Below, one piece after another: positions 2,719 to 34,401 of a DNA stretch of 64,000 nucleotides. How positions within the stretch are numbered: position 1 is the stretch's first letter; every line of letters begins with the position of its first letter. The position numbers were made by a program, and so were the translations under genes. Origin of the DNA: Haloglomus litoreum (lineage in GTDB: Archaea; Halobacteriota; Halobacteria; Halobacteriales; Haloarculaceae); contig NZ_CP119988.1 of NCBI RefSeq assembly GCF_029338515.1, positions 3,100,001 to 3,164,000 on the forward strand. Reading direction: 5' to 3'. Under the pieces are notes generated by a model. That model was not told the origin of the DNA, made no database searches, and worked only from the letters and a program-made list of their open reading frames with translations.

Positions 2719-5064
2719 GTGAACGACACGGTCACGATAGGGGTGGTTGCGGTACTGGTGGTTCTGTCGGGGTGTTCCGGGCTCGCCCCGGGAGGGGCTG
2801 ATACGGATCCGTCCCCGGCCGGAACGCCGACACCCACGATACAGCCAGAATCGACGACGACTGGGACGCCGACGCCGACGGGCACACCGACGCCGCCGCC
2901 CGACTCGGATGGGGACGGCGTGGTCGACGACCGGGAACAGTCACTCGGTCTCGACCCCGAGCGGGCCGATACGGATGGCGACGGACTGAACGACGCCCAC
3001 GAGCTCCGACTCGGGACGAACGCGACGGTCCCCGACACCGACGGCGACGGGCTGGAGGACGGGCCCGAAGTCCGCGAGTACGGAACCGATCCGACGCGGG
3101 CAGACACCGACCGCGATACGCTCGACGACGGACGGGAGGTGGCCAACGGGTCGAGCAGTCCGGTTCGCTGGGACACCGACGACGACGGGCTGAACGACGC
3201 CCGCGAACTGGCGCTCGGGACGGACCCCACGGCTGCCGACACCGACGGCGACGGACTCTCGGATGCACACGAGGTGGTCCGGACCGACCGCTATCCGGGT
3301 GCCGACCCGCTCCGCAAGGACGTGTTCGTCGAGATCGACTACATGCGGGACTACGCCCTCCCGGCCGAGGAGCGCTCGCTCATCGTCGAGAAGTTCGCGA
3401 ACGCGCCCGTCGAGAACCCGGACGGCACGACCGGCATCACGCTGCATCTCCAGCGTGGCGAGCAGGTGCCGTACCGGCAGGTGCTGGACGATCGCGGGTC
3501 CGACGAGATCGAGTCCGAGTACTTCGACCACGCTCGAGAGGGCTACCACTACGCGATTCTGGTGGACCAGAGTGGACTCGCCGCGACGGAGGAACGAGAG
3601 ACGGTAGACGGAGCGGCCACCCCCGGAACCGGGCTGTTCCACGTCTCCGGGTCGGTCGATGACACACGGATGGGCACCACGTTCATGCACGAACTCGGGC
3701 ACTCGCTCGGCCTGAGTGGCGTCTACCGTGGCATCGACTCGACGACGGTCCCGTTCGAGCAGTACCCCAGCATGATGAACTACAACTCGCCGCCGGACTA
3801 CTACGGCTACACCGGCAACGGGTCGTCGTTCGACGACTGGGCGACCGTCGGGAAGCGGATGGACGAGCCGATCCGAACGCGAGGGGTCCGTGTCGACTGC
3901 GTCGACCCCACCTTCGCCGGCGGGAGCGGCAGCGCGGAGAACCCGTACGAGATCGCGAACGTGACGCAGCTCAACTGCATCCGCGCGGACCTGAGCGCGA
4001 ACTACGAACTCGTCGCGGACATCGACGCCACCGGACGCCGCGGGTTCGACCCGGTCGGTGACCGACTCGCCGGGGCGCCGTTCACCGGAACGCTCGACGG
4101 GAACGGGCACGCCATCTCCGGGCTGACACTCCGCCACCAGAACCGCAAGTACGTCGGACTGTTCGACATCATGGGTGGGACGGTCCTGGACCTCCGCATC
4201 ACCGACGCCGATGTCGTCGGGAAGAGCTACGTCGGCGTCCTGGCCGCCGAGAACCGGGGAACCATCAGGAACGTCACCATCTCGGGGTCGGTCAGCGGTG
4301 TCGATGGCGGCGTCGAGAGCGGCGACGCCATCGGCGGTGTCGTGGCCATCAACGGCGATGGCCTCGGCAACCGTGGGAACCTCCCGACCGACGCGACCAT
4401 CGCGCTGACGACCGCCGATGTCGACGTGAAGGGCGTCGATGGCGGCGGTCTCACGGCGTTCAACTACGGCCGCATCACCCGGTCGGCCGCGACCGGAAAC
4501 GTCACCGGCGCGTTCTACAACAGCCCCTCCGAGCTTGGCGGGCTGGCCGGAGGGAACGCCGGTCGCATCACGGAATCCTTCGCGACGGGCACCGTCAGCG
4601 GGGCGAGTAATGTCGGTGGGTTGGTCGGGGAGCACTATCGCGGCACAATCGCGGACACGTACGCCACGGGAACGGTCCGGGCGACGTACAAGGGCGTCGG
4701 GGGACTCGTCGGCACGCATCGCGAGGGCCGCATCGTTCGCTCGTACGCGAACGGCCGACTGGAGGTCGGGAACAGGGTGCCCGCCGTCGGCGCCATCGCC
4801 GGGCAGTCGCTCCGCGGCAGCGTGGAGGCGTCGTACTGGAACGCCGGCCGGTACGATGTCGACCAGGCCGTTGGCGAGCGGACCGATTCGCTCGAGGGCA
4901 TCGCCGACTCACCCGCGAACCGCTCCGCCTGGACCATCACGCCGGTCGAGAACCCGACCGGGGAGGCAGCACGCGATGCGCTCTCGGGCCTCTCGTTCGA
5001 TTCGGTCTGGAAGACGACCGACGGGCACCCGACGCTCGCCTGGGCCGAGAACCGCGATCGCTGA
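2719..5064 (+). CDS. Surface lipoprotein: Ca-binding repeats, metzincin-like site, GLUG repeats
   Basis: This 781-residue protein starts at GTG 2719 with a hydrophobic signal ending in the lipobox LSGC, so it is probably lipid-anchored outside the membrane. A Thr/Pro-rich linker follows, then several aspartate-rich thrombospondin type-3-like repeats (DSDGDGVVDD, DTDGDGL; about residues 60-190) expected to bind calcium. A metallopeptidase-like segment has HELGHSLGL (about 324) and a Met-turn-like SMMNY (about 352). The third zinc ligand expected three residues after the glycine is not His or Asp. The C-terminal half (about 480-715) consists of GLUG-type repeats (GGLVG, ATGTV) common in surface adhesins. 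Proteolytic activity is therefore uncertain. Confidence 0.75.
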   Translation: MNDTVTIGVVAVLVVLSGCSGLAPGGADTDPSPAGTPTPTIQPESTTTGTPTPTGTPTPPPDSDGDGVVDDREQSLGLDPERADTDGDGLNDAHELRLGTNATVPDTDGDGLEDGPEVREYGTDPTRADTDRDTLDDGREVANGSSSPVRWDTDDDGLNDARELALGTDPTAADTDGDGLSDAHEVVRTDRYPGADPLRKDVFVEIDYMRDYALPAEERSLIVEKFANAPVENPDGTTGITLHLQRGEQVPYRQVLDDRGSDEIESEYFDHAREGYHYAILVDQSGLAATEERETVDGAATPGTGLFHVSGSVDDTRMGTTFMHELGHSLGLSGVYRGIDSTTVPFEQYPSMMNYNSPPDYYGYTGNGSSFDDWATVGKRMDEPIRTRGVRVDCVDPTFAGGSGSAENPYEIANVTQLNCIRADLSANYELVADIDATGRRGFDPVGDRLAGAPFTGTLDGNGHAISGLTLRHQNRKYVGLFDIMGGTVLDLRITDADVVGKSYVGVLAAENRGTIRNVTISGSVSGVDGGVESGDAIGGVVAINGDGLGNRGNLPTDATIALTTADVDVKGVDGGGLTAFNYGRITRSAATGNVTGAFYNSPSELGGLAGGNAGRITESFATGTVSGASNVGGLVGEHYRGTIADTYATGTVRATYKGVGGLVGTHREGRIVRSYANGRLEVGNRVPAVGAIAGQSLRGSVEASYWNAGRYDVDQAVGERTDSLEGIADSPANRSAWTITPVENPTGEAARDALSGLSFDSVWKTTDGHPTLAWAENRDR

Positions 5065-27021: not shown

Positions 27022-27647
27022 ATGCTCGCAGACCTGCTCGAGAAGGACTACAACGGGGAGTTAGATGAATATTGGGAGCGTGAGCGGACAGCGACGCCCG
27101 TCAGGGGGTTCGCCGTCTGGCTGCACGCGACTGGGTGTCCACTCAGAGAAACAGAAGCGATTCTCGCGGCTCTCGGCGTGGAACGTTCGCATCAGGCGAT
27201 CTTTCAATGGTTCATCGAATGACTGACAGCAGTCCTGACCCGCCGACGGCGCAGCCGTCCCGGGTCGCGGTTGACGAGACTGCTGTCCGAATCAACGGCG
27301 ACCTGTGTTGGGTAAACGCTGCAATCGACCTCGACACGAAGTTGATCCTCGATGCCCAGATCTTCAAGCGGCACGGCACCGATACAGCGGCTGCGTTCCT
27401 CCACAGACTCCGTGAAAACCACGACTGCACGAACACCACGTTTCTGGCGGATTCCTTCGGCTATCGGACTGCCTTCAATCGATTAGGGCTGAGCGGTCAG
27501 GTAGACTACACCGACCGAAACCTCATCGAAAAGTGGTTTCACACACTCAAACAGTGCATCGATTTCTCACTACGTGCAATACTACAACGAACAACGACCG
27601 CATCAAGCGCTCGACGGACGAACGCCGGCTGAAGAAGTGCTAAACTA
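27022..27647 (+). pseudogene. IS6-family transposase, frameshifted and internally deleted
   Basis: The N-terminal frame reads MLADLLEKDYNGELDEYWER and continues through ILAALGVERSHQAIFQW, then stops at TGA near 27,220. The rest of the DDE domain continues in another frame (RVAVDETAVRINGDLCWVNA, and TFLADSFGYRTAF). It breaks again near 27,568, after which QYYNEQRPHQALDGRTPAEE appears in a third frame. About 20 residues of the C-terminal region are missing relative to the usual family pattern. It cannot encode an active enzyme. Confidence 0.75.
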
Positions 27648-28702
27648 TAGTAGTCGGTAGAATTTTCTGCTCAGGGACAGTTGGAGTAGGTAGTGGACCA
27701 TCTCGACGAGATCTCTGTCGAGGAACTGCAAGACGCCCTCGACAACGTGGACGGAAAGAAGCCGACACAACGGCTCCTGGCCGCGATTGCGTACAAGAAC
27801 GGAGTCACGCAAACCGAGCTAGCGGAGTGGTACGACGTGCCGCGGCGAACGATCTACAGCTGGCTCAAGCGACTCGACACAGACGAGTCGCTTGAGCAGG
27901 CTGTGTCTGATGATAAACGAACTGGGAGAAAACGTAAGCTCTCAGGAGAACAACAAGAAGAATTCGAAGAAGCCGTTCACGACCCACCTGAAGCGGTCGG
28001 GGTTAACGCGCCGGCGTGGACGCCGGCGCTTGCCCAGGAATTTCTCGAAGACACGTACGACGTGGAGTACTCAATCCCGAGCTGTCGGCGGTTGTTGAAA
28101 GAGGCGGGATTGAGCTACCAGAAACCACGCCGTACAGCCGCCGAAGCTGACGCAGACGAACGAGACGAGTTTTACGACGAGTTCAAAAAAAGCGGCGGGA
28201 GATGGACGCCACCGTAGTCTGTATCGATCAAACCAAGAAATCCGTCCAGGTCGAGCCGCGTGCCGCGTGGTTTCCGCGCGGCACGCGGCCCTCGGTCGAA
28301 CTTTCGGGCCAACGCGACTGGACGTGTTTGCTCGGTGCGATCACCGAGGACGGTGATCGCTTCTTCTCCCGATTCGAAGAGTACGTCACCGCCGAGCATG
28401 CGAAACATTTCATCTTAGCATTATGTGACGAATTCGAAGATGATTTGCTCATCGTCCTGGATGGAGCGCCGTACTTTCAGACGTCGGCCGTCACGGACCT
28501 CGCGGCCCGTGACGACCTCGCTTTCGTGACGCTCCCGTCGTATTCGCCGGAGCTAAATCCGGTCGAAGAATGCTGGAGACAGCTTCAAGCCGCTCTCAGT
28601 AACCGCTTTTTCGACTCGCTCGACGAGCTGACGACCGCGATCGATACCGCTCTCGACCAACTTTCCGTTCCAAAAGTGAGTAATTACTTCTAACCACTAC
28701 TA
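27648..28702. mobile_element. IS630-type element, 1055 bp
   Basis: Terminal inverted repeats TAGTAGTCGGTAGAA (left) and the complement of TTCTAACCACTACTA (right) match at 13 of 15 positions. TA dinucleotides lie immediately outside both ends (27646-27647, 28703-28704), as expected for IS630/Tc1 transposition. It lies inside the right part of the IS6-type element. Confidence 0.8.
27693..28693 (+). CDS. IS630-family transposase in two frames
   Basis: The first frame (27693-28217, GTG start) encodes helix-turn-helix domains (LLAAIAYKNGVTQTELAEWY, VPRRTIYSWLKRL). The second frame (-1 relative, to 28693) encodes the DDE domain with VVCIDQTKKS, LIVLDGAPYFQ and the typical SYSPELNPVEECWRQL. The frames meet at a run of seven A (28185-28191); a -1 shift there would fuse EFKK to KKRREMDATVV. 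This could be programmed frameshifting or transcriptional slippage. Alternatively it is a simple inactivating mutation. Confidence 0.75.
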
Positions 28703-30844: not shown

Positions 30845-31060
30845 TCATTCCTCTTCTTCCCTCGGTTCACAGACGACTTCCCGCAGCTCCGCAAGCAACT
30901 CTGGATGGTGTGCTTCAAGCAACTCAACATCAGTCCCAAGCTCCTCAATACGGCTTCTGACTCGAGAAACTGCCTGATACCGCTTCGCTTCGGACACGTC
31001 GGCTTCGCCGCTGATTCGCTCTCGGTCGGTTGTCGTCAGTATCGCCCGATATTTGCTCAT
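30845..31060 (-). CDS. Small helical haloarchaeal protein
   Basis: This 71-residue protein begins MSKYRAILTTTDRERISGEA and continues with helices (YQAVSRVRSRIEELGTDVEL, LEAHHPELLAELREVV). Its length and the opening pattern are common in haloarchaeal accessory DNA; no function is known to me. The ATG at 31060 is preferred to 31099 because the conserved start follows it. It is divergent from the RAMP operon, with three direct repeats in the shared upstream region. Confidence 0.6.
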   Translation of the reverse strand: MSKYRAILTTTDRERISGEADVSEAKRYQAVSRVRSRIEELGTDVELLEAHHPELLAELREVVCEPREEEE

Positions 31061-31136: not shown

Positions 31137-31199
31137 CAGAGCCAACCATTAAGTACCAGCCCGTCACACTAGGTAGTAGGCACAGGACGGCGCAGAAGC

Positions 31200-31245
31200 G
31201 TCGAGGGTGCTGGAACACCCTTCGACTGTGCTGGAGAACCCAGCA
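31200..31245 (+). ncRNA. Two consecutive hairpins in the RAMP-operon leader
   Basis: Hairpin 1 pairs GTCGAGGGTG (31200-31209) with CACCCTTCGAC (31216-31226) around CTGGAA, with one bulge. Hairpin 2 pairs TGCTGG (31229-31234) with CCAGCA (31240-31245) around AGAAC. They lie 60-110 bases before the first ATG and downstream of an ATTAAG promoter-like motif (about 31149). Whether this is a regulatory leader or a separate RNA is unknown. Confidence 0.4.
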
Positions 31246-31306
31246 TGCGAACCAACGGCAGTCAGCGGCAAGAAGTCACCGCCAGGAAACCAGCGGGGGA
31301 GTCCGT

Positions 31307-32182
31307 ATGATTTCGGAGTCCTTCGCCGAGAAGACGTACCCGGACGATGTGTACGTCCGACTCCAGACCGAGTTGCTGGTGATCGGAGATAGCCTGATGA
31401 CCGATCGCCATCACGCGTCGAACGGCAACTACGATGCCGATGACCCGCAGAACCAGATCGGCGGCATCATCCCCTCGTTCAGTCTCTCCGGCTGGCTCCG
31501 ACATGGAATGGAGAAAGTCGTACAGAAACGGGGCACCACCCCATGCCATCCCGGTGAGTCGAACGCCAATTTCCTGAAAGAGGGCGTCTATTCACGTGAT
31601 CTTGAATCGGGATACCACGAGAAAGGCGCGTGTCTAGACGACGATGGAAACGGCTGCATCGTTCTGGACCTCTTTGGTGGGTTCAGTAACCGGCCGGGGA
31701 AGTTCATGCGCCGACCGATCTCGTTCACCCCCGTCCGATCCAGCGTCGACTACACCCGCGGGCAGGCCGAAGGTCACTATCGCCGCCTGAATCGGAACAT
31801 CGTCTCCCGAAACCCGGATGACGGGCGCGAACCCCTCCGGAACACCGAGTTGGATGCGGTGGCCAATCTGGATGGGTCGTGGCACCTCTCCTTCCGGGAG
31901 CGAAAGCCCGAATTCGTCGGGCTCCTCGCCGAGGCGATCGACTTCCTCGGCGCTCACCAGACCGACATGCTCCACCAGCTCGGTGGAGCCCGGAACTTCG
32001 GCGGTGGCATCGTCGACTGCTCGCTGGTGAATCCGCTCTACACCGAGCGTGAACTCAAGCGTGTCTTCGACCGGACGAAACGCCCCACAGAGTCGATGCT
32101 AGAGAAGCACGACGAATGGGAGAACGACCTCCGACCCGCATTCGTGGCAGCACTCGAGGAGCGAATCGCGGCGGACTCATGA
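31307..32182 (+). CDS. Cas7-like RAMP protein of a HRAMP-type system
   Basis: This 291-residue protein has features of the RAMP fold used by Cas7 backbone subunits. They include an early strand (VRLQTELLVIGDSLMTDRHH), the IPSFSLSGWLRHGMEKVV helix (about residue 55) and a glycine-rich loop, GGARNFGGGIVDCSLVNPLY (about 226). It opens a three-gene operon with ATGA overlaps and no CRISPR array. This matches the haloarchaeal RAMP (HRAMP) systems predicted by Makarova and colleagues in 2019. It would bind RNA; a nucleolytic role is unproven. GGGGGAG lies six bases before the ATG. Confidence 0.72.
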   Translation: MISESFAEKTYPDDVYVRLQTELLVIGDSLMTDRHHASNGNYDADDPQNQIGGIIPSFSLSGWLRHGMEKVVQKRGTTPCHPGESNANFLKEGVYSRDLESGYHEKGACLDDDGNGCIVLDLFGGFSNRPGKFMRRPISFTPVRSSVDYTRGQAEGHYRRLNRNIVSRNPDDGREPLRNTELDAVANLDGSWHLSFRERKPEFVGLLAEAIDFLGAHQTDMLHQLGGARNFGGGIVDCSLVNPLYTERELKRVFDRTKRPTESMLEKHDEWENDLRPAFVAALEERIAADS

Positions 32183-32916
32183 CGGCCACAATGCTGGCGG
32201 TGTACCGCCATGACACGCACAAATTCAACGGCCGCACGCACGACAACGCGCTGGAAGAGTTCGCGGGCGTTGAGGTCAATCAACAGGTCCCCTGCGGTGC
32301 TGACGGCGATGCAGCAGCACTCTCGCGTCCCCTGGAACAACGGGAGCCAGTCGTTCCGACCCACCGGTCCCCCTATCGACTGTCGCTCCTGACTGGAAAT
32401 CCGGTTCACGAGACAGGCGAGACCGCTGGACTGAACGTCGCTGCCGAAGTCGAGGACCTCATCACGTTCTCCGAAGCCGATGTAGCCCACGAGCAGTGGC
32501 TACAGAGCGATGTCGCGGCGATGTACAACGAAGCGGTTGCCTTTCCGTACACGTCCCTGAAGTATCATACATTGCTCGTTGCGGCGCTGCTACACCACTA
32601 CCGAGACGGGCAGGGATTCGGCGACCTCCGACTGGTCGTCGACGAAGCAGAGACAATCGTTCCGCATCGAACGGTGTACGCCGGTGAGCAGTTCTCGCTC
32701 CGTATCGCTACAGACGACGGTCGTCCATCTGCCCGCTTCGGGAGCCGCCTCTGTCGATCGTGGGCGTCGACGTGGAACCGACTGACCGACCACCCGCTCC
32801 GGACAGATGAGAAGAAGTGGGACATGACGCTGGATGCCAACCTCCGGCGCATCCGCGCGTGGAGCACGGCGCTCCAGTACATCGAGGACTTCCAGGGGGG
32901 GTGTCCGGACCGATGA
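32179..32916 (+). CDS. Conserved middle protein of the HRAMP-type operon
   Basis: This 245-residue protein starts at ATG 32179, overlapping the Cas7-like stop as ATGA. It begins MTATMLAVYRHDTHKFNGRT and contains LITFSEADVAHEQWLQSDVA and FPYTSLKYHTLLVAALLHHY. I see no nuclease or helicase motif. The HRAMP description includes an uncharacterised conserved protein next to Cas5- and Cas7-like genes, and this position fits it. The longer frame upstream lies within the Cas7-like gene in another phase. Confidence 0.65.
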   Translation: MTATMLAVYRHDTHKFNGRTHDNALEEFAGVEVNQQVPCGADGDAAALSRPLEQREPVVPTHRSPYRLSLLTGNPVHETGETAGLNVAAEVEDLITFSEADVAHEQWLQSDVAAMYNEAVAFPYTSLKYHTLLVAALLHHYRDGQGFGDLRLVVDEAETIVPHRTVYAGEQFSLRIATDDGRPSARFGSRLCRSWASTWNRLTDHPLRTDEKKWDMTLDANLRRIRAWSTALQYIEDFQGGCPDR

Positions 32917-33812
32917 CGGTACTTCAGCAGGTACTCTGGGAGCTCGAGATGGATTACATCGGACATCCCTACTACGTGTCCGGAAACGCCATCCTCAACG
33001 CCCTCGTCCAGAACCTCGACACGGATACAGCCCGATCGCTCAAGGCATCACACGGGATGTTCGTCCCCGGGCAGTTCGGGACGTTCCCCGAAAACCACAG
33101 CCAGTCCGGGAGTCAACCGTACCTCGGTGCGGGGCTACCAGCGGTGGAGACGTACGATGACCTGTTCCTCCACCGCGAACCGGACCAGGGGTGGCTGCTT
33201 GACTCCCGGGCGAGGGATGCGCTGAACATCCACGGTCTCCGGGTCGACGGTGGCCACCCGACACTGGCTCATCAGACGATAATAGGCCGCCCACCCGAAC
33301 ATCAACGGCAGAAGCTAACCACGCGCTGGTACATTCACGCGTATCTGCACGCCGACAACCCCTCGACACTTCCGGTGTCCGAGGAGTCGCTCGGGATGGT
33401 CCAGTTCGGTGCGAAGCGAAACTACGGCTATGGGGAAGCAACCCTGAAAGCGACCCAGACAGTCGATCTCGATGCACTAGACTTCACCAGACTGGATGAG
33501 GCTGAGACACACCTGATACGGTTGGTGACACCGTTCGTTACCAGCAGTGGATACCCAGGGGCGAACGATGTCCCGGTCCCCTGGTGGTGGGACGAATCGA
33601 GAGACGGCCTCCGTTTCCGAGAGGAGAAAATCGTGGATTCGGGAACGGTCCACCGACTGGAGACTGTCGACCATGGGCAGGTCGTGGAATACGCGGGTGA
33701 CTGTCCGGTCGAGACAGCACGGAACGGGCTTACACGAGTCGGATCGCATTCTCGATTAGGCTTCGGTGAACTGCGGGTCATTCCACTGACCGAGTCGGAG
33801 GCAGGTTCGTGA
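32913..33812 (+). CDS. Cas5-like RAMP protein of a HRAMP-type system
   Basis: This 299-residue protein starts at ATG 32913 with another ATGA overlap. It begins with a RAMP-like strand and helix (WELEMDYIGHPYYVSGNAIL). It has two glycine-rich loops, QFGAKRNYGYGEATL (about 165) and VGSHSRLGFGELRVIPL (about 277), the latter very close to the C-terminal G-loop of Cas5/Cas6-type proteins. It could cap or process an RNA guide, but catalytic residues cannot be assigned. No nuclease gene follows; downstream is an epimerase relic. Confidence 0.7.
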   Translation: MTVLQQVLWELEMDYIGHPYYVSGNAILNALVQNLDTDTARSLKASHGMFVPGQFGTFPENHSQSGSQPYLGAGLPAVETYDDLFLHREPDQGWLLDSRARDALNIHGLRVDGGHPTLAHQTIIGRPPEHQRQKLTTRWYIHAYLHADNPSTLPVSEESLGMVQFGAKRNYGYGEATLKATQTVDLDALDFTRLDEAETHLIRLVTPFVTSSGYPGANDVPVPWWWDESRDGLRFREEKIVDSGTVHRLETVDHGQVVEYAGDCPVETARNGLTRVGSHSRLGFGELRVIPLTESEAGS

Positions 33813-33929
33813 TGGCCTACGGAGTCGTATCGAGCGGCAATCGCTCTGCGACAACCCAGAATAAAGCAATCGTATTCCCAACGAAAACTACGGCATCGAC
33901 AAGCTGACCATCGACCGTTACACTCTCCA

Positions 33930-34401
33930 TTTTCCGACCACTACACCCGGTGCTACCACGACCTCTATGGCCTCGAGAGGGGTCGCGCTACGCTATTTTA
34001 ACATCTTCGGCCCCCGCCAGACCGACAGCGCGTACGCGGGCGTCATCCCCATCTTCCTCGAACAGGCCCGGAACGGCGAGCCAATCACCGTCGACGGCGA
34101 CGGCTCACAGACGCGTGACTTCGTCCACATCGACGACATCGTCCAGGCCAACCTGCGTGCCGCCACCACCGATGCCGTCGGCGAGGCGTTCAACATCGGC
34201 ACGGGCACCGAAACCTCCGTCCTCGACCTCGCCGAGACGATCCAGCAAGCGACGGACACGGACTCGGAGATCGTCCACACCGAACCACGGCCAGCCGACA
34301 TCGACCACAGCGTCGCGGACATCTCGAAGGCCCGCGAGCTGCTGGACTACGAGCCCCGAGTGTCACTGCAAGCGGGCATCGAATCGATGGTTCAGGAGTG
34401 A
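33930..34401 (+). pseudogene. NAD-dependent epimerase/dehydratase, N-terminally deleted and frameshifted
   Basis: From 33,967 the frame reads VALRYFNIFGPRQTDSAYAG, then FVHIDDIVQANLRAATTDAV and FNIGTGTETSVLDLAETI, the C-terminal half of a sugar-nucleotide epimerase. Just upstream, CYHDLYGLE appears in another frame (about 33,937-33,970), so a frameshift lies near 33,975. The Rossmann part with the active-site YxxxK is missing. It is a relic of a surface-sugar gene. Confidence 0.75.

Follow-up and report, generated by a model that had tools for sequence, protein, structure and literature searches.

The locus considered here lies within a window of 64 kb, the whole stretch of DNA that was analysed, which covers positions 3100001-3164000 of contig C1 in a complete 4.7-Mb haloarchaeal genome. 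A preliminary description of this DNA had reported three open reading frames joined by ATGA overlaps, had quoted a number of RAMP motifs from them, and had assigned them to the HRAMP type. The frames are indeed present at 31307-33812, a codon-usage gene caller chose the same three starts, and every one of the quoted motifs was found in the translated window ORFs. The three genes, referred to below as the trio, encode a Cas7-like protein, a middle protein and a Cas5-like protein (Table 1). Ahead of them stands a small divergent gene (family f6) whose 71-aa product had no match in Pfam; its position relative to the trio is the same in many relatives, an HTH gene being found instead at other loci.

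Table 1. Coordinates of the features of the locus within the window.
Feature	Position	Strand	Size or basis
Small divergent gene, family f6	30845..31060	-	71 aa; gene caller and clustering
Structured 5' leader RNA, divergent member	31173..31247	+	sequence and folding
Mini-ORF, 21 codons	31245..31310	+	stop overlaps Cas7-like start (MRTNGSQRQEVTARKPAGESV)
Cas7/Csm3-like RAMP protein	31307..32182	+	291 aa; profiles, conserved motifs
Middle protein	32179..32916	+	245 aa; RHDxHK near N-terminus
Cas5/Cmr3-like RAMP protein	32913..33812	+	299 aa; profiles, conserved motifs
Decayed right terminal inverted repeat CCAGAATAAAGCAATCGTATTCCCAACGAAAA	33856..33887	+	best-scoring window site, 19.4 of maximum 51 bits
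Presumed surviving target-duplication copy CTAC (NTAN pattern)	33888..33891	.	position after right repeat
Interrupted NAD-dependent sugar epimerase gene, 3' part	33889..34401	+	resumes at YxxxK-type motif YGIDK

The trio is preceded by what appears to be a divergent member of a structured leader RNA, composed of a left arm GGCACAG, a hairpin TCGAGGGTGCTGGAACACCCTTCGA, a right arm CTGTGCTGG and a third arm CCAGC that stands before the ATG (31245) of the mini-ORF; in relatives, the corresponding first ORF is longer and begins in a similar way. This three-way-junction leader is common to both clades of trios described below (leaders in L031-L130). Its pairing is reflected in covariation that was demonstrated on the relatives, the window copy being one that covariance model R2 missed: over 22 pairs, 90.6% of the cells are paired, 12 pairs have changed on both sides, and the double-change cells number 57 vs 25 in shuffles. 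The third arm, beside the start codon, has an alternative pairing with the right arm (90.2% paired). No match to the leader was returned by Rfam at gathering thresholds. Model R2 (used in place of a first model, R1, whose structure was poor) located the leader in 232 of the 391 haloarchaeal genomes, in many instances ahead of unrelated genes; as such, we take it to be a general element and have rejected it as an HRAMP guide. The operons that it precedes are accessory ones of various kinds, and a small regulator gene in divergent orientation usually lies next to it.

Profile comparisons lend the outer two proteins a type III flavour. The Cas7-like protein matches the PADLOC Csm3 profile at 2e-6 and the Pfam RAMPs family PF03787 at E 5.6e-4, with a score (20.9 bits) slightly below the cut-off of 22.1. 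The Cas5-like protein, for which a Pfam scan gave no match, reaches 7e-4 against PADLOC Cmr3, a value that is weak alone; the model was matched by all 21 of the relatives scanned, the best score among them being 3.2e-7. At the level of structure, Foldseek with models of the Cas7-like and middle proteins gave no significant match, and sequence profiles from the PDB returned nothing relevant for any of the three. As the AlphaFold model of the Cas7-like protein is poor (pLDDT 42), its weak matches to Csm3 (Foldseek E 0.17) were set aside as evidence. The HRAMP-type identity of the locus, in which a Cas7-like protein, a Cas5-like protein and a conserved middle gene occur together in the absence of an array, is supported by the profile matches.

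Homologs of the Cas7-like protein were found in 105 of 391 haloarchaeal genomes, and no relative of it was found in the viral contigs and phage records searched. In a maximum-likelihood tree of this protein, the haloarchaeal trios fall into two clades separated with 100/100 support: clade A, which includes the window copy and whose members are about 70-79% identical to the window Cas7, and clade B, with about 51-59% identity. In nearly all fetched clade-B loci Cas5 is followed by a gene for an RNase-H-fold protein (PF13482), an HNH endonuclease (PF01844), or both; neither gene follows Cas5 in any fetched clade-A locus. In clade A and clade B alike the middle gene accompanies the genes on either side of it, in line with its earlier designation as a conserved protein. 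Ratios of dN/dS for the trio range from 0.02 to 0.32 (the 14 close pairs of lowest dS per gene), pairs from transposase-poor elements included, and judged by these ratios purifying selection acts on the trio even in elements that have lost the transposase. Many clade-A copies are plasmid-borne. Several strains of Halobacterium salinarum have clade-A trios on their plasmids, annotated only as hypothetical proteins, and at one locus (L163) clade-A genes stand on a contig labelled as an Elusimicrobia MAG, which is probably a misbinned haloarchaeal contig.

The preliminary description had noted that neither an array, nor Cas1, nor an adjacent nuclease was to be seen, and this bears out. There is no CRISPR-like array or array-like repeat within the 64-kb window, no array in any of the 19 clade-A elements described below, no Cas1 anywhere in the window genome (Haloferax volcanii serving as the positive control), and no nuclease gene beside the window trio. 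Homologs of the clade-B nucleases, f3 (HNH) and f4 (RNase-H-fold), are likewise absent from the window genome. By hand count, f3 (E<1e-40) is found in 1 of ~46 genomes with clade A only vs ~11 of 286 without HRAMP, and f4 in ~8 of 46 vs 38 of 286. The clade-B nucleases acting in trans were rejected on these grounds, and given that clade-A loci and the window genome lack them, with no enrichment, the missing local nuclease is best regarded as the rule for clade A.

The description of clade A as nuclease-less is, however, provisional on account of its middle protein. A motif RHDxHK near the N-terminus is conserved in this protein and invariant within clade A, and could be a nuclease site. Over residues 10-21 the pattern extends to RHDxHK..G..H, which is also invariant in clade A and resembles an HD-type metal site. 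The AlphaFold model of the protein has a mean pLDDT of 65, and in a second look at it (VIA) a Z of at least 2 was reached only by six Csm1 (Cas10) chains among 77, with weak values of Z 3.2-4.5. On the evidence of this model, the middle protein may be a large subunit of the Cas10 kind that has been reduced in size. The likeness of the trio to type III subunits thus consists in the Csm3 and Cmr3 profile matches and, for the middle protein, in a weak fold match to Csm1 only; it is offset by the high divergence of the trio, its weak scores, and the size of the middle protein, which is one third that of Csm1.

When clade-A loci are compared, their similarity ends sharply downstream of Cas5 at CTGAATAAAGAAATCGTATTACCAACAACTG, an inverted copy of which is found upstream, immediately outside the f8 transposase where f8 is present. 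A systematic scan yielded 19 elements bounded by terminal inverted repeats of ~31 bp and by identical 4-bp NTAN target duplications (L031, L032, L033, L034, L038, L039, L045-L050, L052-L054, L138, L145, L153 and L169); mismatches with paired repeats were confined to two cases, L037 and L055/L167. Terminal repeats were absent from every clade-B locus scanned. Since the repeat score matrix was derived from the right ends of clade-A loci, the scores of those right ends are not independent; the left ends and the duplications are. The elements range in size from 3.2 to 10.9 kb, the smallest (L052, 3.2 kb) holding scarcely anything beyond the repeats and the trio. A full trio is present in 19 of 19, always adjoining the right end, a constancy that is partly by construction as the elements were mostly found via Cas7. 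Near-full-length f8 is present in nine of the 19, and the remainder hold f8 scraps or none. For the element at L049, whose flanks lie 4.2 kb apart in G032, five congeners match the joined flanks as one contiguous stretch, with one copy of TTAT where the flanks meet, as in an uninterrupted site. Judged by this one empty site in five congeners, a clade-A element has demonstrably been mobilised. Taken together, these sequence features identify clade A, with near certainty, as a transposon module.

The transposase f8 is a DDE protein of ~600 aa that matches DDE_Tnp_1 (PF01609) and, at 3.6e-33, the ISH3 family NF033541, with a score (115 bits) below the cut-off of 225. By hand comparison, 12 of 13 intact f8 relatives (~32% identity or more) adjoin clade-A trios. 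The insertion sites have only NTAN in common, which is the pattern expected for an ordinary IS transposase. The longest matches between elements and their flanks did not exceed background (11.05 vs 11.09 nt), and an element-encoded guide matching the insertion site was rejected on that basis.

An independent search with the repeat pattern in 22 genomes carrying a clade-A trio, in all of which a reversed-pattern control gave 0 matches, recovered further members of the family. L175 (TTAA), L176 (GTAA) and L178 (TTAC) have matching duplications together with remnants of the middle gene, Cas5 or both; L181 and L182 have Cas5 scraps beside a repeat; L180 carries f8 without a trio; and several of the fetched elements are short MITEs. 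The MITEs and the trio-less f8 element argue that mobility does not depend strictly on the trio. One genome (G129, with L031 and L181-L184) has 28 matches to the repeat pattern, among them several MITEs of ~110 bp, and thus houses many copies of the family. Another element, L172, contains genes for a ribbon-helix-helix protein (4258-4530) and a ParE-like protein (3948-4247), likely a toxin-antitoxin pair.

The preliminary description had asked which effector this copy uses. For most clade-A loci none is linked, and the window copy is no exception; some elements, however, encode a RuvC-only TnpB/Cas12f-like protein of ~220 aa (L037, L038, L049, L050, L055/L167, L158 and L168, with remnants at L147 and L156). 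Its position upstream of Cas7 is near-constant, at or overlapping the Cas7 start (10492-11154 in L037, 8983-9645 in L038). It resembles TnpB and Cas12f in its retained RuvC D, E and D motifs and its TNB zinc ribbon (PF07282, 5e-10), and differs from them in being without the N-terminal RNA-binding half and in sitting within RAMP operons. The window copy is without this protein.

The window locus appears to be what is left of such an element. Its best match to the right repeat begins 44 bp beyond the Cas5 stop and is followed by CTAC; the runner-up sites in the window score 12.5 bits on the same strand and 13.7 on the other. The sequence after the repeat reads YGIDKLTIDRY into an epimerase gene, the 5' half of which is not adjacent. 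The repeat scan found no left repeat in the window, the repeat pattern had no match in the window genome, and that genome has no close f8 homolog, the best having 27-31% identity. Having lost its left end and transposase, the window trio would be either a relic or a domesticated ribonucleoprotein; from its sequence, we regard the locus as a relic that can no longer move, although its proteins may still be produced. Upstream of the trio, at 27022-28693, are IS-type transposase genes unrelated to f8, which may be the trace of a rearrangement that deleted the left end. It could be argued from the decayed right repeat, the missing left repeat and transposase, the interrupted epimerase gene and the long terminal branch (0.45) leading to the window Cas7 in the tree that the trio is itself functionless, a decaying remnant of a dead transposon whose ORFs happen to be unbroken as yet. 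We think this rather improbable, as all three ORFs remain intact with full-length conserved motifs, and their relatives are strongly constrained.

In the passages on HRAMP of two reviews (PMC8730458, PMC12669027), the systems of Makarova et al. (2019) are array-less Cas5/Cas7 derivatives nearest to type III, usually found with nucleases, and are read as defence; no transposon is mentioned in those passages. The trios share with HRAMP their diverged Cas5- and Cas7-like proteins, the presence of a conserved extra protein, a haloarchaeal host, and the absence of array and adaptation genes. The description suits clade B well, that clade having HNH and RNase-H-fold nucleases, whereas the window's clade has no linked nucleases and is set between transposon ends. 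As such, the earlier proposal of RNA-guided defence with an alternative nuclease suits clade B, and does not extend to the transposon-borne and nuclease-poor clade A. What is new here is that there are two clades of trio, one of which (A) is fixed transposon cargo without the nucleases of its sister.

Because clade-A trios are borne by a transposon and are without the cutting genes of clade B, they may aid the transposon rather than defend the cell. The reading to which we incline, and which we hold to be probable by a little, is that a type III-derived RAMP ribonucleoprotein was captured by a transposon and serves that element, the window copy having since become immobilised. Taken by itself, service to the transposon as the function of the trio is a real prospect short of a probable one. 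Under this proposal the three proteins would assemble into an RNA-binding ribonucleoprotein with the Cas7-like protein as its backbone, the Cas5-like protein as its cap and the middle protein possibly as a reduced Cas10-like large subunit, and the assembly would act for the transposon rather than in host immunity. Its most likely role would be to steer or restrain transposition, either through the choice of target or through control of the ISH3-related transposase in trans; alternatively, together with the RuvC-only TnpB-like protein, it might cut a matching site and so bring about retention or homing. RNA-guided targeting by the trio is possible, but no guide was found: flank matches were at background, and the leader, which is the sole conserved RNA, is general. 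That an array-less RAMP ribonucleoprotein guides the ISH3-related transposon (or, with the RuvC-only protein, homes it) by means of a non-array RNA seems to us unlikely; such an RNA might, for example, come from transcription that proceeds out of the trio, past the right end and on into the adjoining DNA.

Mobile elements frequently bear defence cargo, and the trio may be cargo of that kind, beneficial to the host or directed at other elements, with RNA-guided action against viruses or plasmids and a nuclease supplied in trans. The plasmid location of many copies would suit such a role, as would the persistence of the trio under purifying selection without a transposase and the nucleases of sister clade B, which reviews read as defence. 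We find this doubtful all the same. The clade-B nucleases are not enriched in clade-A-only genomes and both are missing from the window genome; there is no source of guides, as arrays are absent from the window and the 19 elements and Cas1 from the window genome; and the trio is fixed against the right end, with f8 nearly exclusive to it.

A more specific possibility is RNA-guided transposition in the manner of CRISPR-associated transposons, in which the RAMP complex would pick the target and recruit the ISH3-like transposase. Loss of the nuclease upon capture by a transposon is the trend among known systems of this kind, and the trio is constant at the right end and retained where a transposase would be available only in trans. 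We nevertheless consider it unlikely, given that neither guide nor array was found, that flank self-matches are at background, that no known adaptor protein of the Tn7 type (TnsC or TniQ) was noticed, and that the sites show only NTAN. As for the view of the preliminary description, an HRAMP defence operon whose nuclease is encoded elsewhere in the window genome, the HRAMP-type genes are intact and conserved, but their transposon setting and the absence of homologs of either clade-B nuclease from that genome render it very improbable.

The preferred reading of a captured ribonucleoprotein that serves its transposon invites comparison with known transposon-linked systems, which in the passages of the two reviews (PMC8730458, PMC12669027) are of types I, IV and V. 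We compared clade A with CRISPR-associated transposons I-F3, I-B2, I-D, I-C, IV-A and V-K, the Mu-linked I-A and the telomeric I-E5. It resembles them in having an effector of the RNA-guided type, its nuclease (mostly) lost, inside a transposon, and in clade A the effector genes do lie between defined ends with a target duplication, the window copy having the right end only. It differs in its ISH3-related, IS-like DDE transposase where those systems have Tn7 or Mu machinery, in its 4-bp NTAN duplications, type III-derived proteins and archaeal host, and in that no array or guide was found. As no Tn7-type machinery was noticed and no guide was found, we have not filed the clade-A module as a CRISPR-associated transposon. 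With ISH3 insertion sequences it shares a related transposase and short direct repeats, and differs from them in the ~600-aa length of the transposase, its size of 3-11 kb, its RAMP cargo, and its toxin-antitoxin-like and regulator genes.

If the preferred reading is true, type III-like proteins would be tied to an IS-type transposase, a combination that does not occur among the variants linked to transposons in the relevant passages of the 2025 CRISPR classification. With one whole clade being fixed cargo of a mobile element and lacking the nucleases of its sister, the question surrounding HRAMP is recast in a testable form, namely whether an array-less RAMP complex controls transposition. 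Haloferax sulfurifontis and Halobacterium salinarum are carriers of trio copies amenable to study.
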